This document shows positions 27,559 to 40,704 of a stretch of 40,704 bases of DNA, in pieces (within the stretch, counting starts at the first letter, position 1; each line of letters starts with the position of its first letter). The stretch is from Terriglobia bacterium (GTDB taxonomy: Bacteria; Acidobacteriota; Terriglobia; JAIQFV01): NCBI GenBank assembly GCA_028716525.1, contig JAQUPQ010000038.1, positions 1-40,704 of the forward strand, in the 5' to 3' direction. A program made the position numbers and the translations under genes. The notes beneath the pieces are model-generated. The model was given only the letters and a program-made list of their open reading frames with translations. It ran no database searches and was not told the origin of the DNA.

Positions 27559-29658
27559 TTACTGCGGGTCTTCGCGATGATCGCCCACGAGTGAGGGATC
27601 TTTGGACGAATAATACTGATAGTAATATTGGTACTCGTAATAGCGCACCTTTTCCAAATCGTAATCGTTCAGAACAGCGCCCACGACATGCGGATTCACC
27701 TTTTGCAGTTTCTGGACACACCGCCGCGCAATTTTCTTGTCGGTGGCGTGGGCCCGGCACACAAAGACGACGCCTTCCACAAACGAAGTCAAAATCAGCG
27801 GATCGGAAACCGAGGCCACGGGCGGCGAATCGATCAGCACCCAACGGAACATGGAACGGAATTGGTCCAGCCAGTAGTCAATGAATCCCTCGGCCAAAAA
27901 CGCAGGAACATTGGGAGGCAAAGCCCCTGCCGTGATGACGCTCAAATTGGGCCGCCCCGTGCGCCGGATGATGCGGTTCAAATTGACCATTTCTGCATCG
28001 GTCATCAAATTCGTGAAACCCGGCTCGCTGGGTGTCTTCAATTGACGGTGCAAGGAGGGCCGCCGCAAGTCCAAATCGATCAGCAAGGTGGGATCCCCGG
28101 CATCCGCCAAGGCCTCGGCCAGGTGCAACGAGACGGTCGATTTGCCCTCTTGCGGCAAAGCGCTTGTGATCAAAATTGCCTGGGAGTTGCGGTCGCGCCG
28201 CGCGAACAGCAAGGCGGTGCGCAACGTGTTGAAACTCTCCCGTACCATTCCGGAATCGAAGTTGCGCGAACGCGGGATGACGGCCAACTGCGGGATGTCC
28301 AGGTAGGCCTCAACATCGTCGTGGGTCTTGATGGTATTGTCGATGAAATCCCTCAAAAAGGTCAGCGCCGCGCCCAGAATCAGACCCCCCACCAATCCCA
28401 GGAAAAGGTTCTTGGAGCTTTGCTGATTGATAGGAACCCCCGGGACGGTGGCGCGTTCCACGATGGAGATGTTATTTCCGCGCAACCCTTTCAGGAGGTC
28501 GATTTGGCTGTAGCTCTGCTGTAAACGCTCGATGGCTCCGAGCTGAGATTCCTTCTGACTCTGAACGGCTTCCAGCTTGTCGCGCCGGCCGGCGGCCAGG
28601 TTGGCTTCGCCGCGGGCCTGGCTCAGCGCCACTTGGGCATCCTGCTCCTGCTTTCGCGTATTGCTCAATTCGGTTTCGCTCTTCTTCAGATCGCTTCGCA
28701 ATTCATCATTGATCCGCGTCCGAATCTGCTCGACCTCACGTTCTTTTTGCAGCACCATCGGAAATTTCGGTCCGTATTGCTTGGTCAATCCCAGCAGATC
28801 GGTTTCGAGCTTGATCCGCGTGGTCACCAGAGTCTGAACGGCAGGACTCATCATGGAAGTCGGAACGGATTCCGCCCCGTCGTTGGCTTGAATGGCACGC
28901 TCGATGGTTGATTTCTTAATCTCGATTTCCTGACGATCGGAGGTGGCCTTGGCCAGATCCTTGGTGGCGGACAAGACGGCATCGTCGTCAATGGTCCGCT
29001 TGCCATCCGGGGTCAGAATCAAACCTTCCTGCCGCGCCACTTGCGAGGCCTTCTCTCCCGTTTCCTGAAGCTTCTTGCTCTGTTCTTGAATCCGTTCGGT
29101 CAATCCGCTCGTCAGTTTGTTGACTTCCTCGGCAATGCTGCGTTCGTTTTGTTCCACATACGCTTCGCACAGAACATTGGCGAACAGCGCGGCCTCCTGG
29201 GGATTGGCCGAAGTGATGTTAATGGCGACCAGTGAAGTGTCCGGCACAGGAGTGGGTGTCACCGATCCGGCGATTCGAATGGCCAGAGCATCCACCGGCT
29301 GGTACTGATAGAGTGCCGGTTTCTCTTTGATCAAACGCCTGGCGACTTCCAAGCCGAGAGCGCGGCCCGTGAGGATGCGGTACTGCGTGTTCATGTAGGT
29401 TTGATAGTTGAGGAGGCCGGCATATTCCTGTCCTTGAGACAAGCTGGTCGGCATGACATTGGACGGCTGCTCAATATTAATTTCAGCCGTGGCCCGGAAC
29501 AGAGGAGGTTGAAGCAAACCATACACGACCACGATCCCGACGATGACGACGGTGCACGTCAGAATGATCCATTTACCGGAGTTCAACAGCCGCAGATACT
29601 CCATAATATCGATCTGCGGTGCGTCTCTCCCCGTGGTGTGTGGTTTTTCAACAGCCAT
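27559..29658 (-). CDS. Wzz/GNVR chain-length regulator fused to BY-kinase (Wzc-like)
   Basis: A 699-residue polysaccharide co-polymerase with tyrosine autokinase. TM1 is at about 30-49. The periplasmic region (Wzz, long coiled coil, GNVR) spans about 55-415, and TM2 about 415-440. The cytosolic kinase has Walker A PQEGKST (K506), Walker A' LLIDLDLRRPS and Walker B VLIDSPPV. Its C-terminus has eight Tyr within eleven residues (YYEYQYYYQYY), the expected autophosphorylation cluster. It controls polymer length with the Wza-like protein encoded just upstream. The ATG has GGAG 7 nt upstream. Confidence 0.93.
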   Translation of the reverse strand: MAVEKPHTTGRDAPQIDIMEYLRLLNSGKWIILTCTVVIVGIVVVYGLLQPPLFRATAEINIEQPSNVMPTSLSQGQEYAGLLNYQTYMNTQYRILTGRALGLEVARRLIKEKPALYQYQPVDALAIRIAGSVTPTPVPDTSLVAINITSANPQEAALFANVLCEAYVEQNERSIAEEVNKLTSGLTERIQEQSKKLQETGEKASQVARQEGLILTPDGKRTIDDDAVLSATKDLAKATSDRQEIEIKKSTIERAIQANDGAESVPTSMMSPAVQTLVTTRIKLETDLLGLTKQYGPKFPMVLQKEREVEQIRTRINDELRSDLKKSETELSNTRKQEQDAQVALSQARGEANLAAGRRDKLEAVQSQKESQLGAIERLQQSYSQIDLLKGLRGNNISIVERATVPGVPINQQSSKNLFLGLVGGLILGAALTFLRDFIDNTIKTHDDVEAYLDIPQLAVIPRSRNFDSGMVRESFNTLRTALLFARRDRNSQAILITSALPQEGKSTVSLHLAEALADAGDPTLLIDLDLRRPSLHRQLKTPSEPGFTNLMTDAEMVNLNRIIRRTGRPNLSVITAGALPPNVPAFLAEGFIDYWLDQFRSMFRWVLIDSPPVASVSDPLILTSFVEGVVFVCRAHATDKKIARRCVQKLQKVNPHVVGAVLNDYDLEKVRYYEYQYYYQYYSSKDPSLVGDHREDPQ

Positions 29659-29701
29659 GTCTCAACTCCACCTCAAAAACTCCCGCCTTCAGCTCGTTGT
29701 C

Positions 29702-30733
29702 TTAAAAAGATCGTTTGGGAACGACAATGATGTCCCCGCCGGTAATCGGCACGTCCGGTGACTTTCCCCGCTCAATCTTTCCGACATCCACTTCACGATT
29801 AATTTCCTTGCCGTCTTTCACCGTCTTGATCATGACTTTCTTATTGGCGAACTTCCCGAATCCGCCCGCGACGGAAATGGCTTTAAGAACCGTCATGCCG
29901 CGCTCCAGGTCATATTGGCCCGGCTTGGCCACTTCGCCCTGAACATAAAACCGCGAGCCTTCGGAGCGGGTCACATTAATGACATCTCCATCCCGAATCG
30001 GAATATTCACTTTTTCGAAATTGCTGGAGAACATATCGTCCAATTTGATGGTATAGATCTTGTTGCTTCCCTCTTCCATTCGTGCCACGGTGGCTTGGCC
30101 TCCGGTGGTCTTGGTCAGACCGGCCTCCGAAAGAATTTCCAGCAACGTGGTCGGTCCGCGCAGCGGGTAGCGGCCCGGCTTTTGGATTTCTCCCAGAACA
30201 GTGACGGATAGACTATTGTACTCTTTTACGCCGACGCTGACCTGCGGATCCACGATGTATCCGTCGCTGAGCCGTTTGACCAAAAGATCATGAATCAGAC
30301 CGACTGTTTTCCCCGCGACCAACACATCGCCCAAGTAGGGAAACCGAATGGTTCCAGAGGGCGAAATCGTATAGAGCGTGGGTTGCTCGGTCTGGCTTTG
30401 TCCGAAAATGTGAATTTCCAACACATCCGAAACACCCACTTGATATTCCGCTTTTCCCAACGGCTCCGGTGTAGCGGCTTGCGTTTCGGGAGGCTTGACC
30501 GGGGCCTGGCCGGCAGGCGGAGCGGAAGCCTGGGCCGGAGTTTCTTGTGCCTTCGCCGGAGCGGGTGGAGTCTGGGAAGTTTGAGTTGGAGGCGTCTTTG
30601 GAGGAGCCTTTAACTCATCCCCGGGAACACGAGCCCGGGTCTGACCCAGCACCGGTTGCGCTGCAACCACTCCCATTCCCGCCAAGCTCATAAGCATCAA
30701 TCCCAATCCGCAAAATGCTCTAACTCGTCCCAT
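29702..30733 (-). CDS. Polysaccharide export protein, SLBB domains (Wza-like)
   Basis: A 343-residue outer-membrane/periplasmic channel protein. It has a signal peptide (hydrophobic to about residue 28, AAQPVLG), then a low-complexity Pro/Ala/Gln/Thr linker at about 30-92. The Poly_export domain begins EYQVGVSDVLEIHIFGQ. Two SLBB-type segments follow, SVTVLGEIQKPGRYPL and RFYVQGEVAKPGQYDLE. Unlike classical Wza, no lipobox Cys is seen after the signal, so it may not be a lipoprotein. ATG 30733 is preferred; an in-frame TTG at 30754 is an alternative. Confidence 0.9.
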   Translation of the reverse strand: MGRVRAFCGLGLMLMSLAGMGVVAAQPVLGQTRARVPGDELKAPPKTPPTQTSQTPPAPAKAQETPAQASAPPAGQAPVKPPETQAATPEPLGKAEYQVGVSDVLEIHIFGQSQTEQPTLYTISPSGTIRFPYLGDVLVAGKTVGLIHDLLVKRLSDGYIVDPQVSVGVKEYNSLSVTVLGEIQKPGRYPLRGPTTLLEILSEAGLTKTTGGQATVARMEEGSNKIYTIKLDDMFSSNFEKVNIPIRDGDVINVTRSEGSRFYVQGEVAKPGQYDLERGMTVLKAISVAGGFGKFANKKVMIKTVKDGKEINREVDVGKIERGKSPDVPITGGDIIVVPKRSF

Positions 30734-30884
30734 GGAATTCCCACGAACATCCAAAGCCCTTCCACAATTGCCCGGAGCTGCGAAGTTCGATTCCCCCTCT
30801 TCTTATCGGCCTGACTCTTGTTAAATTTCAATAAAACCTTCAATGAACTATCGTATCTCATTCACCTGGGCGCTCCCCCAAAAA

Positions 30885-32843
30885 CTAGGGCTGAGGAGTT
30901 GCGGGCGCGGTAGGCTGGCGGGTGTACACCTGGCTGCCCTCGCCGCTGGAAGCATGACCCATGTTGAAGCTCACATGGAAAATGTGCCGCCGAAAATTGA
31001 ATCCGTCTCCCAAGTTCGAAATTCGATCCTGAAAATCGTAACCAAAATCGACAATCATTTGACTGTTCAAAATGATGCCGAGATCCACACCGGCATCCCA
31101 CAGATGATCATTTCGCCGGGGTCCCAGGGTCACCACCGGGACGCCACCCAGGGTCGAGGCCAGGATTGAATCCTGAGGATATTGATTGCGCTGGAATCCG
31201 CCCCGGAACGTCAGTTGGTAGCGTTCTCCGGAATGCTGGAACCGGGCATTCACCCCGTCATTCACAAAATAGCTGTTGATCCCGAAATTCGACAGTGACG
31301 TGCTCCGCAGGAAAGCCACGTCAAAGACGTTGCGGTCGTTCAATTCCTTGGTCAAAGAGGCTCGTGCCGTCCAGCCGTGGAAATTCGAGAGTCCTTGGTT
31401 GTTGTAACTCGTGGTGCGGTATCCGATAGTGAAATTTCCGGAAGTGCGGTCGGTGAACGTCTTATTGATTCCAAACTCGTAAGAATTCGTGTTCCCGCTG
31501 CGCCCGGCGGCATTGGTTCCGCTGGTGATATCTTTGGTGTAGGTGTATCGCGCGAAAAAGTTGGCCGTCAGCCACTGGTCGCGCAGCCATCCGGCGCTCA
31601 ACGAGTAGGTATCGTAATTGAAGAACGTGGAGTTGTTGCGATTATCAAAGACCAAGCGGTTGAAATCCGCGTCGCCGATCAAGCGGTCTTTTTCCGTGAC
31701 ATCCACATTCACTTCCCCGCCGATGTCGTTGCGCAGGTAAGGCTCCGACGAAAAACTCAATTCCCTTCCGGGATCGAACTGGCGGGAATCGAAAATTCCT
31801 CGCACAAAGTGATCCCGCACGGAAAACCGCAGCCAATCCGTGGCTTCCACGCTGGAATCGAAATTCAAATAATGTTCGATATGGGAGGGTTGACTGAATC
31901 CCGCAATCCATCGGAACACGGGATTATAGGCAATTCGAAAATCGCGCGTCTCCCCGGGGATTTCATATTCCAAAATGGGCGACAGCGTGTAGCTGCTCAC
32001 TCCCAAGGCATTGGTGTTGGTTCCCAGGAAATTGGAATCATACTCATAAATAAAACTGACGTACGGACGCAAAGTACCCGGGCCGATCTTATATCCCAAG
32101 AGGACATTGTTTTCAGCGCCGCCCAGCGTGGTTCCGGGCAGGTACACGGTGTCGCTTCCGGGCGGATCGATGGCGGCATTCATGTAGCTCTGAATGCTGC
32201 CATTGGGCTTGACCTTCGGCAAAGCCAGGGTTTGAGCGGCGAGCGGGGTCTTCACCACACGTCCCCGAAGCAAAACCACTTCACCCGAAGATTCGAGGGC
32301 GGAATTCGCACTGGCGAGTTGCGTGCCTACACCGGTGGGAGAGGAAGTCTGGTCCGGGCCCTTCCCGGCGCCGCTTCCGGCCATCCCGCTGTGGCGGGCC
32401 AAAAACTCCACCATCTCACCGGAATTCGAAGTAATTTCAAAACCGGCACGATTGGATAGAAACTCCGTTTGAACCAAACGCGGAGTCCCCGGCGTCAGAA
32501 CCAGCACCGCCGTTCCCCGGGTTTCATTGATCGGGAGAACGACCAACGCTTTGGAGTTTGAAAGATTTTCCATTTCCAATTTGGCGCGCCGGGAGAGATG
32601 GAGAACAAATCCCTCGCGGTCTTCCAAAACCTCTGCCCGAATCTTGGGCAGGTCCGAGGACGAAAAAAGAACAAACTCGATTCCGGTGGGTGTCACATTG
32701 ATCCGATAGAATATCTTCTGGGCTGGAAACGGCATATCACTTCGTTCCGCATGCAACCCGACCCCGAAAAGCAGGGTCAGGCCCAACACCGCCAGAACAG
32801 CAAATCCGAGTCTGATAGCCCTCATACTATGCAGCCTTTTCAT
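30885..32843 (-). CDS. Outer-membrane beta-barrel protein of the EPS operon
   Basis: A 652-residue exported protein: signal peptide 1-32, then an N-terminal domain at about 38-145 of alternating strands resembling an AMIN-like fold. A linker rich in Gly/Ser/Thr follows to about 195. From about 250 to the end there is a series of amphipathic strands with Tyr/Phe and Asp/Asn repeats (FIYEYDSNFLGT, YTYTKDITSG and others). This fits the BBP2-type putative porins found in exopolysaccharide gene sets. The ATG has GGAGG 6 nt upstream. It is the first gene of the operon and probably provides the outer-membrane step or a scaffold; substrate unknown. Confidence 0.75.
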   Translation of the reverse strand: MKRLHSMRAIRLGFAVLAVLGLTLLFGVGLHAERSDMPFPAQKIFYRINVTPTGIEFVLFSSSDLPKIRAEVLEDREGFVLHLSRRAKLEMENLSNSKALVVLPINETRGTAVLVLTPGTPRLVQTEFLSNRAGFEITSNSGEMVEFLARHSGMAGSGAGKGPDQTSSPTGVGTQLASANSALESSGEVVLLRGRVVKTPLAAQTLALPKVKPNGSIQSYMNAAIDPPGSDTVYLPGTTLGGAENNVLLGYKIGPGTLRPYVSFIYEYDSNFLGTNTNALGVSSYTLSPILEYEIPGETRDFRIAYNPVFRWIAGFSQPSHIEHYLNFDSSVEATDWLRFSVRDHFVRGIFDSRQFDPGRELSFSSEPYLRNDIGGEVNVDVTEKDRLIGDADFNRLVFDNRNNSTFFNYDTYSLSAGWLRDQWLTANFFARYTYTKDITSGTNAAGRSGNTNSYEFGINKTFTDRTSGNFTIGYRTTSYNNQGLSNFHGWTARASLTKELNDRNVFDVAFLRSTSLSNFGINSYFVNDGVNARFQHSGERYQLTFRGGFQRNQYPQDSILASTLGGVPVVTLGPRRNDHLWDAGVDLGIILNSQMIVDFGYDFQDRISNLGDGFNFRRHIFHVSFNMGHASSGEGSQVYTRQPTAPATPQP

Positions 32844-35002: not shown

Positions 35003-37516
35003 TCAATACACAATATCGATGCCGGTATCGAGGAATCGATGCTGCATTCCAGTAAAACGTCTGAAGAAGGGAGAGGTGATGTTGTTGTACACGTCCCGCG
35101 GATTGGCACGGTCGGTAACATTGAAAATGGTTAGGGCTCCGCGCAATTTGTGGTTCTTGATCCAGGGAAGCGGCAATCGAAATTCCTTGCTGAGTTTTAA
35201 ATCCAGAGAAAGAAATCGCGGGAAACGCCGGCTGTTGGGCAGACCCACATAATTTTGCCTCTCATCGACCCAGGAGAATGGAAACCCGGAATGATAGTCC
35301 AGCAAAGGGCTCGCCAGAATCCCCCAGAAATGAGTCTGAAACCGCCCCCACGTAATAAGCCGATGGGGAATGTCTGAAGGCAAGGAGCCATGAAAATTAG
35401 GGCGAATGACCGGTTGTTCAAACGGCACATAGATCTGACTCAAGGTATTGAGATCGCCCTGCGCCCGGCTATTGACATAAGAAATATTCCATTCCGTTCC
35501 GGGTGTGGGCCGCGTATGGAGTGTGAATTCCAGCTCATGGTATTGGGCACTTCCATTGTTGAATAAGACCATCATCGGGGCTGCGGCACCGCTTGAGCTC
35601 TGCGGTTCCACAAAGAACTGATTGTAGGACCGGCTGAATACAAATCCCACCCGGAGTGCGATGTTGGGACGCAACTCGTGATTCCCTTCCACGTTCCACG
35701 TTAGATTGTATGGCGTCGTCCCGAACGGACGTTGCGAATAAAGGGGAGTTCTTTGAGCCGTCCATGCGCCATACATGTTGTTGAACATCACGGATGGCCC
35801 CACGAGCACCCCTGAAGAATTGAACAAGCTGACTTGGCGCGCCGGATTGGCGGCAAAATCAGCAGCCAACAACGGGACATGGTCATAGAAAATTCCCAGC
35901 CCGCTTCGAATAATCGTCCTGCCGCTCTTTCCCGGGGAAAAGACAATCCCGAATCGGGGCGCCAGGTTGGCTTTGCCGCCCAAACTTTGGGCCGAGTACC
36001 TCAATCCCCCATCCACTCCGACGCGTTCATTAATGGACCAGTGATTCTGGATAAAGAGGTTCGCTTCATTTCCACTCGCCGACATCCGACCCTGACCGGC
36101 AAAATCGATACGTTCAGCCAGTGAGCCGTCGCTTCTCAAAAGATCAATGCCGTGCGACAGGCTCGATCCCTCGAAGGCGCGCCGCAGAAAACTTCCTCCT
36201 AGCGTCAGTTCATGTTTGCCATGCCAATTCTTCGCGGGCAAAGAATAATTTGTTCGCAGCTCCTCCTGGTTGCTTTGGCGGTTGAACGTATTGAAGAAAT
36301 TTCCATCGTAACCGTCGGGAGTGATCCGCATATCCGCCGGTCCCTGTCCATGCCCCCCGCTGTCGAATTCCGTTCCTTGCAGCACCGTCGATAGAACTCC
36401 GCCTGATTTTGTGACATATCGATCCGCCAATGAAACGGAGAAGCCATTCTGGTCATAGTCTGAGGAAGCCGATTGCGGGATCAGAGAACTGATATTGGCA
36501 AATTGTCGCCGCAGGGGGAACACATTCGCATTGACGGTAATCAGGTGATTATCGGAGACAATGTATTGAAGCGACGTGAACGAATTCAGGTCCCGGGTCT
36601 TGATTTCATTCTTGGGCCACGGCAGCCCGCGCACCGGCTGCTTGTCAATGTCGAAAGCCACGGCTTCGGAAAAATTTAGTCGACCGCTGCGGAGGAGCGG
36701 ACCCGTGACATAAAGTTTGGGATTGACGTTTGCCAGGCCGACCAGTTGGCCATTCTTGAGGCGGGGATTGGGCGGAATGTCCTGGACCTCGTACTCCCAG
36801 CGGCTGGAGGGTGGACGCGTATATAAGGCTGTCAAACCGCCCGTGAAGCCACCATACTCCGCCGCATAGGCGTTCTTATACACTTGCAATGATTCAATCG
36901 CCTGCACCGGGACATCGATCGAGAAGCTGCCCGTGACGGGATCCACTGCTTCCGCGGAATTCACCAGCATGAGGCCTTGGTTTTCCGGTAGACCCTTGAT
37001 ATTGATTCTTCCATCGGGTGTGCGGATGACCCCGGGCAAAATCGGCAGAGCCGCCTTGAACTTTTGTTCTGTCAGGGGCAGGTCCGTCATCTGCTGTGTG
37101 CTGAGGGTGTCGGGCGGAGCACCTTGCTCGGGAACCACGGTGGATGCAGCCTCAGTGACCCCGACCGTCTGTCGAAGTCGGACCTCCGCGGACAGCTTCA
37201 GTTGAAGGAGGATCGGCTCCTCGGCCACTTCCAAATCTTTCTTGACGGGATAAAATCCCATGGCCGCGCAGGAGAGCCTGTACTTCCCCGGCAAAGCATT
37301 TTCGAATTTGAATTCTCCCCGGCTGTCCGTCTTTCGCGTCACACCCCCCGTAGGCAAAAGCGGACCTGTCAATGTACACACGGCCTCGGCGATGGGCGTG
37401 TTCTGCTCGTTTACAACGTCGCCCTGAATCGCAGTTCTTGTCTCCGGTGAAGACACGACGGACACAGGAATACCGAGGAAAAAGATGAGGATGGAAAGAA
37501 CTGCCCCGAGTTTCAA
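35003..37516 (-). CDS. TonB-dependent receptor with carboxypeptidase-regulatory-like domain
   Basis: An 837-residue outer-membrane receptor. Signal peptide 1-25; CarboxypepD_reg-like domain at about 30-115 (IQGDVVNEQNTPIAEAVCTL, DSRGEFKFENALPGKYRLSC). A plug region follows at about 140-240 (LPLTEQKFKAALPILPGV, AAEYGGFTGG). A 22-strand-type barrel runs to an aromatic C-terminus (DIVY). The overall type is the Oar-like family abundant in acidobacteria, here shorter than usual. TTG 37516 is chosen: GAGGA is 7 nt upstream and it gives an MKLGAVLS signal start. No TonB partner genes are next to it, so substrate is unknown. Confidence 0.88.
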   Translation of the reverse strand: MKLGAVLSILIFFLGIPVSVVSSPETRTAIQGDVVNEQNTPIAEAVCTLTGPLLPTGGVTRKTDSRGEFKFENALPGKYRLSCAAMGFYPVKKDLEVAEEPILLQLKLSAEVRLRQTVGVTEAASTVVPEQGAPPDTLSTQQMTDLPLTEQKFKAALPILPGVIRTPDGRINIKGLPENQGLMLVNSAEAVDPVTGSFSIDVPVQAIESLQVYKNAYAAEYGGFTGGLTALYTRPPSSRWEYEVQDIPPNPRLKNGQLVGLANVNPKLYVTGPLLRSGRLNFSEAVAFDIDKQPVRGLPWPKNEIKTRDLNSFTSLQYIVSDNHLITVNANVFPLRRQFANISSLIPQSASSDYDQNGFSVSLADRYVTKSGGVLSTVLQGTEFDSGGHGQGPADMRITPDGYDGNFFNTFNRQSNQEELRTNYSLPAKNWHGKHELTLGGSFLRRAFEGSSLSHGIDLLRSDGSLAERIDFAGQGRMSASGNEANLFIQNHWSINERVGVDGGLRYSAQSLGGKANLAPRFGIVFSPGKSGRTIIRSGLGIFYDHVPLLAADFAANPARQVSLFNSSGVLVGPSVMFNNMYGAWTAQRTPLYSQRPFGTTPYNLTWNVEGNHELRPNIALRVGFVFSRSYNQFFVEPQSSSGAAAPMMVLFNNGSAQYHELEFTLHTRPTPGTEWNISYVNSRAQGDLNTLSQIYVPFEQPVIRPNFHGSLPSDIPHRLITWGRFQTHFWGILASPLLDYHSGFPFSWVDERQNYVGLPNSRRFPRFLSLDLKLSKEFRLPLPWIKNHKLRGALTIFNVTDRANPRDVYNNITSPFFRRFTGMQHRFLDTGIDIVY

Positions 37517-38138
37517 CCGAATATCCTCAACCGGCTCGAACAACCTGAATGCTTCAATACCGATAACGATTAGCGACGAAATCTCCCTGCCTGCGCCTCC
37601 CGGAAGAACAAGAATTTATATCGCCTCGGGGGAAGCAATCAAGTGTTCAGTCAAGAAATTTGGAGTCATGTGTTCATGCCTGCCATCAACCGAATGCATC
37701 CCCTCCAGGGCGGTAGGCATCATAGTTAGTTGCTAATGCAGATTCCCGTTTAATAAAGAACTCCGAAGCTCAAGCCGACTGAGAAGCGGGAGCAAACCCG
37801 TAAACGTCCAAGGGAGTTCGATGGACACCTATTCCCCTCTCGGTGGAAGGAACATTCCCCCGACTGAGGGAAAGGGCTGCTGCGCTTCTCCGGCACTACA
37901 GAGATTTACCCTGTTTTCCGTAGACTCAGTTCTCCATCAAGACCCTTGATCATTTCCACCAAGTCTGGGGACTCACAGCAGAGTCCTCGGAGGAAATGGA
38001 GCATGCTATACGTCGCCGCCATCGATGCGTCGACGGTTGACCCATGAAGGTTATACAAACGCGCCTCAAAGCATTTTCTTTTCCGGCCTTTTTCGGAGCA
38101 GCATCCGGGCCGGCAAAACACGCGGGGAGTCACTGACC
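37517..38138. other. Divergent intergenic region, no gene seen
   Basis: A 620-nt gap between the receptor gene (-) and the aminotransferase (+). It holds the receptor promoter at 37615-37642. A stretch around 37770-37820 with GGGAGCAAACCC looked riboswitch-like but lacks the required consensus. Short frames on either strand have no recognisable content. No clear plus-strand promoter was identified. Confidence 0.5.
37615..37642 (-). promoter_or_regulatory. Candidate promoter of the TonB receptor gene
   Basis: Minus strand -35 TTGATT (37637-37642), 16-nt spacer, -10 TATAAA (37615-37620), about 100 nt before the start codon. Confidence 0.5.
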
Positions 38139-39500
38139 ATGCTTGCGCCCACTTCTACCCTTCTTTCCACCGAACAATATTCACAGCATGTCAATCCCCA
38201 GTGGGTCCGCCTCCTGGACTTATTGCAGATGAACGAGTGTTACCGGGAATGCATCGGGGCGGAGCTTTTCACGGCCGAGGGGCGCCGCATCCTCGATTTC
38301 TTATCGGGTTACTCTGTCCACAATGTCGGCCATAACCATCCCGCCGTTCTTGCCGCGATAAGAGACGAGATGGACCGTCGCGGACCCGCCATGTTGCAAA
38401 GCCACGTTTCGGAGCTGGCCGGAGAGTTAGCCGACCAGCTATGCCGCCGTGCCGGCGGGCGGTTGACCAAAGTTTATTTCTCCAACTCGGGCAGCGAGGG
38501 AATTGAAGCCGCCATCAAGTTTGCACGGGCTCATACCGGACGCTTCGGTCTGCTCCATGCCGACGGCGCGTTTCACGGGCTCACCTGCGGAGCGCTGTCT
38601 TTAATGGGCAGTTCCTTCTGGCGGGAGGGTTTTGGGCCGATGCTGCCTGAAACGGAGTCCGTTCCTTTCGGGGAGTTAAGCCCCCTCGAAGAAAAGTTGC
38701 GCAGCAGAAAGTTTGCAGCATTTATTGTCGAGCCCGTTCAATCCGAAGCCGGCATCCGGATCCCCCCGCGCGATTATTTGGGCCAGGCGCAGGATCTCTG
38801 CCGGCGATACGGCACCCTCTTTGTCTTGGACGAAGTCCAAACCGGATTGCATCGCACAGGGCCCTTCCTCGCGGCCCATCATTTCGGTCTGGATCCCGAC
38901 ATGGTGGTTCTCGCCAAGGCACTCAGTGGCGGGCTGATTCCGGTGGGCGCTTTGCTCCTGTCGGACGCCGTGTACGAATCGGTCTACCCCTCCTTGCGTC
39001 GCGCCTTAATCCATACGTCCACCTTCGGCGAAAACAGTCTGGCGATGCGGGCCGGACTGGCGACGCTGCAAGTCTTGGAAGACGAGAGGTTGGGAGAGCG
39101 GGCTACCCAGGTCGGGGAGCGGCTGCGCCGCGATTTGGGCCAAGCGCTCGCTGATCTGGAAATGGTCAAGGAAGTTCGCGGGCTGGGACTGCTCTGCGGG
39201 ATCGAGTTCCACACGCCCAAACAGCTTCGCTTGAAAGTCTTTTTTGAAGCGTTCAAGAGAATCCATCCGGGCATGTTTGGCCAGTTGCTGGTCATGCGCT
39301 TGTTTGGCGACCAGAACATTCTCACGCAAATCTGTGGCAACAATTTTTTGGTTTTGAAGATTGCTCCACCGCTGATGGTCAGCGATGCGCAAGTCGACGA
39401 GTTTGTTTCGAAAACGGCGGAAGTGGTGGACGCCATCCATTCTTCCAACGCGTTTTGGTCCGACGCGCTGAGTCTGGCCCGTCGCGCCGTTAATATTTGA
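38139..39500 (+). CDS. Class III PLP-dependent aminotransferase
   Basis: A 453-residue class III (ornithine/acetylornithine-type fold) aminotransferase. It has LDFLSGYSVHNVGHNHP, the NSGSEGIEAAIKFARAH PLP-phosphate loop, FVLDEVQTG, and the PLP Lys K260 in LAKALSGGLIPVGALL. The C-terminal GNNFLVLKIAPPL is conserved in a broad subfamily. ATG 38139 has GGGGAG 9 nt upstream; an in-frame upstream start lacks homology. Substrate is not evident. It is 64 nt before a type III PKS gene, so it may supply or modify an amine-bearing precursor for that pathway. Confidence 0.9.
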   Translation: MLAPTSTLLSTEQYSQHVNPQWVRLLDLLQMNECYRECIGAELFTAEGRRILDFLSGYSVHNVGHNHPAVLAAIRDEMDRRGPAMLQSHVSELAGELADQLCRRAGGRLTKVYFSNSGSEGIEAAIKFARAHTGRFGLLHADGAFHGLTCGALSLMGSSFWREGFGPMLPETESVPFGELSPLEEKLRSRKFAAFIVEPVQSEAGIRIPPRDYLGQAQDLCRRYGTLFVLDEVQTGLHRTGPFLAAHHFGLDPDMVVLAKALSGGLIPVGALLLSDAVYESVYPSLRRALIHTSTFGENSLAMRAGLATLQVLEDERLGERATQVGERLRRDLGQALADLEMVKEVRGLGLLCGIEFHTPKQLRLKVFFEAFKRIHPGMFGQLLVMRLFGDQNILTQICGNNFLVLKIAPPLMVSDAQVDEFVSKTAEVVDAIHSSNAFWSDALSLARRAVNI

Positions 39501-39564
39501 AAGGAAGAATGAAACGAGGCTGGCATCACAATAGACCGGCTCGTTCCACGAGAACAATCGAATC

Positions 39565-40611
39565 ATGAAAATCGCCAGCGTCGCCAGTTCGTTCCCGCCC
39601 CACTATTACAAACAGGAGGTTCTGACGGGGGCTTTAAAACAATTCTGGGGGGACCGATTGAATAGCCCCCAGGTGATCGACCGCCTGCACAATCACTCCG
39701 CCGTCGAAGGTCGATATCTTTCTCTGCCGTTGGAAGAATATTACCAAATCCAAACCTGGGGACAGGCCAACAACGCCTGGATTCGCACCGCCGAAGAATT
39801 GGGCCGCGAGGCGCTCTGTCGCGCCCTGCGTGGCGCCGGCCTTTCGCCGCAGGACCTCAACGCCATCTTCGTCGTCTCAGTGACCGGCATCGCCAGCCCC
39901 TCGCTGGAAGCGCGTCTTGCCAATCGCATGGGTTTTTCGCCTCATATCAAACGGATTCCCATCTTCGGTCTGGGATGCGTGGCGGGGGCTGCCGGCATCG
40001 CCCGCGCCGCCGACTACGTGCGGGGTTTCCCTCACCACGTCGCCGCCCTATTGGCCGTCGAACTGTGCTCGCTGACGATCCAAAAAGAAGATCTTTCCAT
40101 GGCCAATTTGATTTCAGCAGGACTGTTTGGCGACGGGGCGGCTGCCGTGATCGTCACCGGCTCGGAAAGTGCCGAAAGCGGTCCGACCGTCCTGGCGACC
40201 AGATCCGTGTTTTACCCGGACACACAGGACATCATGGGATGGAACATCTCGGAAAAGGGTTTTCAGATCGTCCTTTCTCCACATCTTCCGGATTTAATCG
40301 AAGAACACCTCGGTCACGACGTCGAAACTTTTCTCGAGGACTGTGGAATCGATCGCTCCGCTATCGGCTGCTGGATTCTTCACACCGGCGGGCCGAAGAT
40401 TCTCGATGCCACGGCCCATGCGCTGAAGCTTCCCAAGACCGCTTTGGCTACATCGTGGGAATGCCTTCGAAAGGTCGGAAACCTATCTTCGGCCTCCGTG
40501 TTGCTCGTCTTGGAACAATTCCTCCGGCGGAGACCGGCCGCGGGAACCTACGGATTGCTGGCCGCCATGGGGCCGGGCTTCTGTTCGGAACTGGTTTTGC
40601 TGAGGTGGTAA
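39565..40611 (+). CDS. Type III polyketide synthase (chalcone/stilbene synthase-like)
   Basis: A 348-residue thiolase-fold enzyme with the full triad C138 (FGLGCVAGAAG), H273 (ILHTGGPK) and N306 (GNLSSAS). This supports a decarboxylating condensing enzyme that uses CoA starter and malonyl-CoA. It is not a FabH, given the GLGC and GNLSSASVL context. It lies between the aminotransferase and an FAD oxidoreductase starting 4 nt later, so all three are probably one operon. The product is unknown; known relatives make alkylresorcinols, alkylpyrones or quinone precursors. Confidence 0.9.
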   Translation: MKIASVASSFPPHYYKQEVLTGALKQFWGDRLNSPQVIDRLHNHSAVEGRYLSLPLEEYYQIQTWGQANNAWIRTAEELGREALCRALRGAGLSPQDLNAIFVVSVTGIASPSLEARLANRMGFSPHIKRIPIFGLGCVAGAAGIARAADYVRGFPHHVAALLAVELCSLTIQKEDLSMANLISAGLFGDGAAAVIVTGSESAESGPTVLATRSVFYPDTQDIMGWNISEKGFQIVLSPHLPDLIEEHLGHDVETFLEDCGIDRSAIGCWILHTGGPKILDATAHALKLPKTALATSWECLRKVGNLSSASVLLVLEQFLRRRPAAGTYGLLAAMGPGFCSELVLLRW

Positions 40612-40615
40612 CGTA

Positions 40616-40704
40616 ATGGCTGTTGCTCGAAATACAGACGTCCTTGTCATTGGAGGAGGACCGGCGGGTCTGGCGGCGGCTCTGGCATGCCGCCAGAAGG
40701 GATT
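40616..40704 (+). CDS. FAD-dependent oxidoreductase (3' partial)
   Basis: Only the first 29 codons are in the window. They encode a beta-strand DVLVIGGGPAGLAAALACRQ, the GxGxxG dinucleotide-binding motif of FAD/NAD-linked enzymes. It starts 4 nt after the PKS stop. By analogy with other type III PKS clusters it could be a monooxygenase or reductase that tailors the polyketide; this fragment cannot tell. Confidence 0.8.
   Translation, partial: MAVARNTDVLVIGGGPAGLAAALACRQKG

Follow-up and report, generated by a model that had tools for sequence, protein, structure and literature searches.

A PigE-like aminotransferase beside a type III polyketide synthase in a conserved, modular gene set of Terriglobia

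Genes at the end of the contig

The window analysed here, 40,704 nucleotides in length, is the entire contig C38 of the source genome (labelled G000), and nothing lies past position 40704 in the contig. Its last three genes encode an aminotransferase (AT), a type III polyketide synthase (PKS) and the start of an FAD monooxygenase-like protein (FAD). They share one strand and are separated by gaps of 64 nt (AT-PKS) and 4 nt (PKS-FAD), as a sequence-only reading of this DNA had described. The features are as follows:

38139..39500, + strand: class III PLP aminotransferase, PigE-type (AT); Aminotran_3 6.1e-87; best NCBIfam model PigE, 1e-124 (next best 1e-83)
39501..39564, + strand: 64-nt AT-PKS spacer, read from the sequence, without the TPR-like gene of the near relative L003
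39565..40611, + strand: type III PKS with Chal_sti_synt_N/C domains; Pks11 match 1e-104; triad C138/H273/N306 by mapping
40616..40704, + strand: 5′ end (29 codons) of an FAD-dependent monooxygenase-like gene with the motif GGGPAGLAAA; the contig end cuts the gene

AT is intact and encodes 453 amino acids. The ATG at 38139, with GGGGAG upstream, is preferred as its start over a longer frame open from 38025, which is possible and unsupported. An Aminotran_3 domain (Pfam) and a putative PLP lysine identify the protein as a class III aminotransferase. Residues E120, D231, Q234 and K260 are present and invariant in 14 homologues, and K260, within LAKALSGG, is taken as the PLP lysine. By both curated model and PDB sequence, the closest aminotransferase is PigE/TamH of the prodigiosin and tambjamine systems; the best PDB match, 4ppm (PigE), is 40% identical over 346 aa and also matches in the C-terminal stretch. 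However, the PigE model score of 417.8 bits is about half of the equivalog cutoff of 850, and AT consists of the aminotransferase domain alone, without the N-terminal thioester reductase domain of PigE, and thus falls outside the PigE family proper. PigE converts a thioester to a lipid-type aldehyde that is then aminated, with ornithine or arginine as the probable donor (PMC8341465). Just before a PPL motif, K407 of AT is a lysine in all aligned AT homologues and an arginine at the aligned PigE residue, a difference that might affect how the donor or the substrate is bound.

PKS is likewise intact (348 aa) and is a type III enzyme by its chalcone/stilbene synthase domains (Pfam). It is nearest to Mycobacterium tuberculosis Pks11, followed by cyanobacterial CylI and RppA-type enzymes; Pks11 and CylI are the nearest solved PKSs. 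Pks11 aligns to the chain end and shares the triad: C138, H273 and N306 of the window PKS align with C138, H277 and N310 of Pks11 and are invariant across 81 homologues, in agreement with the intact triad read initially. Nevertheless, Pks11 is only 48.7% identical to the window PKS over 345 residues, and the genomic partners of Pks11 and CylI differ or lack assignment. Pks11 makes alkylpyrones from C16/C18 acyl-CoA (PMC6274091). Assignment to an alkylresorcinol or alkylpyrone subtype requires a known product or the ArsB W281/ArsC G284 determinant. W226 and W270 are conserved in the window PKS family, with equivalence to ArsB W281 not established, and a call from these Trp/Gly determinants was set aside. 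Across the 81 homologues, the active site has the same residues whether or not AT is linked to the locus, and PKS showed no signature of AT linkage.

The GGGPAGLAAA dinucleotide motif of the truncated gene matches the conserved N-terminus of the FAD family found downstream of PKS in relatives. Neither the remainder of FAD nor an operon-type YceI gene was found on the other contigs of the source genome, and the TPR-like gene has no match there at E<=1e-40. A YceI gene on contig C88 was considered as the missing operon member and rejected: it scores 56 bits against about 206-325 for the operon family and has no FAD beside it. As the sole other YceI in the genome, it is by sequence score a paralogue.

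Ordinary histidine biosynthesis genes (HisZ-like, HisD, HisC, HisB and HisH) occupy the other end of the contig (7-6409). An exopolysaccharide export set on the minus strand (27559-32843) comprises a Wzc-like tyrosine autokinase, a Poly_export/SLBB protein and a 652-aa protein with no Pfam match. Divergent from the AT operon, also on the minus strand (35003-37543), lies a gene for an outer-membrane beta-barrel protein with a carboxypeptidase-regulatory-like domain, whose conservation beside the AT operon was not seen in relatives.

A modular gene set across Terriglobia

One scan of GTDB genomes with the window PKS yielded 80 loci, nearly all labelled acidobacterial, with PKS identities of 56-74%. 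Together with the window, these 81 loci, some of them cut by contig ends, were scored with five profile families (AT, TPR, PKS, FAD and YceI). AT, a secreted TPR-like protein (TPR), PKS, a class A FAD monooxygenase-like protein and a secreted YceI protein constitute a conserved modular set of Terriglobia. All five genes form one operon in some genomes, and in others TPR-PKS is split from AT-FAD-YceI.

The three members missing or truncated in the window are best described from relatives. In L003, the FAD protein has FAD_binding_3 as its top Pfam domain, and domain and fold together identify a class A flavoprotein monooxygenase; the structure predicted for a relative (pLDDT 92.5) has class A flavin monooxygenases and flavin halogenases as matches. 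A geranylgeranyl reductase (GGR)-like structure is also among the fold matches, and a role as geranylgeranyl or menaquinone reductase was rejected on sub-cutoff NCBIfam scores and on the Pfam and fold results. The YceI protein of L003 belongs to the YceI lipid-binding family (PF04264, 6.7e-24), and in relatives the lipid-binding domain follows an N-terminal hydrophobic leader. The TPR-like protein is predicted to be a helical repeat, preceded by an N-terminal stretch of low confidence that would fit a signal peptide. Its fold search returned generic TPR matches only, none at E<=0.001; a match to a bacterial sterol transporter (E 0.055) is weak and was not used as evidence.

PKS-FAD-YceI without AT is the commonest form (26/81 loci), followed by AT-PKS-FAD-YceI (9), TPR-PKS (8) and AT-TPR-PKS-FAD-YceI (7), with the rest fewer. 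FAD lies downstream of PKS in 53 of the 81 loci, giving a PKS-flavoprotein operon of which the window retains only the 5′ end of FAD. In 18 of them, window included, AT and PKS share a strand and AT comes first. The pair is then followed by FAD and YceI and not by housekeeping genes, so the early suggestion that a small biosynthetic operon begins in the window is sustained by its relatives. No methyltransferase was seen among the conserved neighbours of the PKS loci. Of the closest relatives, L003 (72%) carries AT-TPR-PKS-FAD-YceI and L002 and L006 carry TPR-PKS; the window order is AT-PKS-FAD, without a TPR gene. Within one syntenic background, L014 and L034 have AT at a site with shared flanking genes, and most other loci lack it there, which indicates that AT comes and goes at one site. 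In L042, of the same background, AT is just upstream of PKS and the contig ends there. Five loci of genus g7 (L206, L207, L209, L210 and L211) hold a lone FAD-YceI pair with shared flanking genes; those g7 genomes that were searched carry, at another place, a PKS with about 40% identity to the window enzyme.

Genome-wide counts cover 349 genomes of the class Terriglobia, with AT counted as the close family (over 700 bits) and PKS at a threshold of 1e-90. AT occurs in 37, PKS in 110 and FAD in 121. AT is found with FAD in 35/37 genomes (Fisher p 7e-16) and with PKS in 31/37 (p 5e-12), and PKS and FAD are shared by 83 genomes (p 3e-27); these p values ignore relatedness. The two exceptions to AT-FAD, the source genome and G256, are both cut at this point by a contig edge. 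The tightest partner of AT is therefore FAD, with AT-FAD as the usual operon core, rather than PKS. AT is present across about 20 genera of the class, and no close relative was found outside Terriglobia among 247 genomes spread over the phylum.

Six AT genomes lack PKS at 1e-90. In G256 a contig edge leaves only part of PKS, and G149 and G157 carry a PKS about 40% identical. In the remaining three (G271, G042 and G304), a wider search at E<=1e-15 detected no type III PKS, and AT-FAD-YceI or AT-TPR-FAD-YceI is present. FAD-YceI also occurs in other PKS-free genomes; thus neither AT nor FAD strictly needs PKS.

That the five genes act in a common pathway is most strongly supported by the complementary way in which they split. 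Among the regions examined, AT and FAD belong to one operon in about 26 genomes; AT precedes PKS on the same strand in about 12 and stands by itself in 5. In genomes with AT as the first gene of AT-FAD-YceI, PKS usually sits elsewhere with TPR and has neither FAD nor YceI beside it (G205, G132, G321, G003, G249 and G173); in G144 and G335 PKS stands alone. Where AT stands alone, the rest forms TPR-PKS-FAD-YceI (G092 and G330) or the set is split three ways (G071, G090 and G222). Second FAD copies in split genomes lie beside PKS (G268 and G292) or in a third place (G132, G173 and G249).

On the PKS tree, the presence of AT beside PKS changes at least 11 times, at least 7 of them on supported branches, which argues that AT is dispensable. 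Linkage to PKS needs 9 changes on the AT tree, most of them on branches without good support. The AT sequences of PKS-free genomes nest among PKS-linked ones, and AT is thus not obviously repurposed in them. The five families also have correlated evolutionary distances; shared descent would produce this just as shared function would, and the correlation is weak evidence of the latter. The AT-PKS pairing first noticed in the window is accordingly conserved in relatives, but it is not obligatory and has changed repeatedly, FAD-YceI being the stable partner of AT.

Candidate pathway and competing readings

The reading we favour, with our confidence evenly divided, is that the three genes form the leading part of a modular Terriglobia lipid-modifying pathway in which a PKS lipid is oxidised by FAD and aminated by AT. 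We infer every substrate, the order of the steps and the product. PKS would extend a long-chain acyl thioester to an alkylresorcinol or alkylpyrone (a long-chain phenolic lipid), which the class A flavoprotein would then oxidise (hydroxylate). The PigE-like AT could aminate a carbonyl of this lipid or of a related one. Binding or carriage of the lipid in the envelope may fall to secreted YceI, joined in many relatives by the secreted TPR-like protein. AT would be an optional tailoring step, because most PKS loci lack it, and the AT-FAD-YceI module may also work without PKS. Against this reading stand the PKS-free genomes, the second FAD copies of some split genomes, the lack of a methyltransferase among the conserved neighbours and PKS active sites that are alike with and without a linked AT. 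The operon probably makes an oxidised, perhaps amine-bearing lipid. An amine-bearing phenolic lipid or quinone, as originally proposed, remains a suggestion, of which the operon part has held.

A less probable though serious alternative treats AT-FAD-YceI as an independent unit, a lipid-amine or amine-oxidation module whose substrates would be fatty aldehydes, quinones or isoprenoids, with PKS as a frequent but separate operon partner. It retains this standing mainly because AT-FAD-YceI exists without any type III PKS, in genomes whose ATs nest among PKS-linked ones. AT-FAD as the tightest pair and operon core, and FAD-YceI alone in several lineages, point the same way. However, the co-occurrence of PKS and FAD is strong, more loci have PKS-FAD-YceI without AT than any other arrangement, and the PKS locus of split genomes commonly lacks its own FAD, as if one FAD served both.

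It is unlikely that the set is a phenolic-lipid or polyketide-quinone operon like those of actinobacteria and planctomycetes, with AT as an auxiliary enzyme (e.g., in precursor supply) that does not touch the product. PKS with a flavoprotein and no AT is indeed the majority layout, and PKS-oxidoreductase operons elsewhere, including those of the PkQ and hierridin type, combine PKS, methyltransferase and flavoprotein oxidoreductase and lead to phenolic lipids and polyketide quinones (PMC9927152, PMC10896814). Yet AT never occurs without FAD where this can be assessed and is usually the first gene of the FAD operon. The comparison with these systems is also partial. PkqABC/srs-type actinobacterial operons resemble the Terriglobia set in uniting a PKS of long-chain acyl type with a flavoprotein oxidoreductase, but they include a methyltransferase, which was not seen in the conserved Terriglobia set, and the latter adds AT, YceI and a TPR-like protein. 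The Planctomycetota/hidABC alkylresorcinol operon shares PKS and FAD oxidoreductase, and one planctomycete-like member adds genes for a lipoprotein and a lipid/isoprenoid-binding protein, but its order is methyltransferase-oxidoreductase-PKS (PMC10896814). That paper mentions no aminotransferase, YceI or Acidobacteria, and the word aminotransferase is missing from two type III PKS surveys. No description of the AT-PKS-FAD-YceI combination was found in the open-access literature, which does not prove its absence; AT beside this kind of PKS, already flagged as an unusual layout, appears to be previously undescribed.

That AT is an unrelated housekeeping enzyme of the argD/ornithine type, beside PKS by chance, is very improbable: it shares the class III fold with ArgD and scores substantially against acetylornithine transaminase models, but it falls far below their cutoffs, is nearer to PigE and occurs in only 37 of 349 genomes, and its repeated conserved linkage to FAD/PKS in independent genera nearly excludes this reading. 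Two findings speak against the milder caveat that AT may be metabolically unrelated to its neighbours: its co-occurrence with FAD is nearly absolute, and the operons split in complementary ways.

Soils are rich in Acidobacteria, and only a small number of the lipids and secondary products of this group have been assigned to genes. A bolder and rather doubtful proposal is a Terriglobia-specific, widely scattered route to amine-bearing phenolic lipids or aminoquinones, built from a PKS scaffold by a PigE-type AT with dedicated envelope lipid-binding proteins; such a product would possibly be a membrane lipid or electron carrier not yet recognised in soil acidobacteria. The five-gene set offers a short list of genes for joint study and predicts a nitrogen-bearing phenolic lipid that depends on AT. 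If the product is a quinone, polyketide-quinone respiration would extend beyond actinobacteria.
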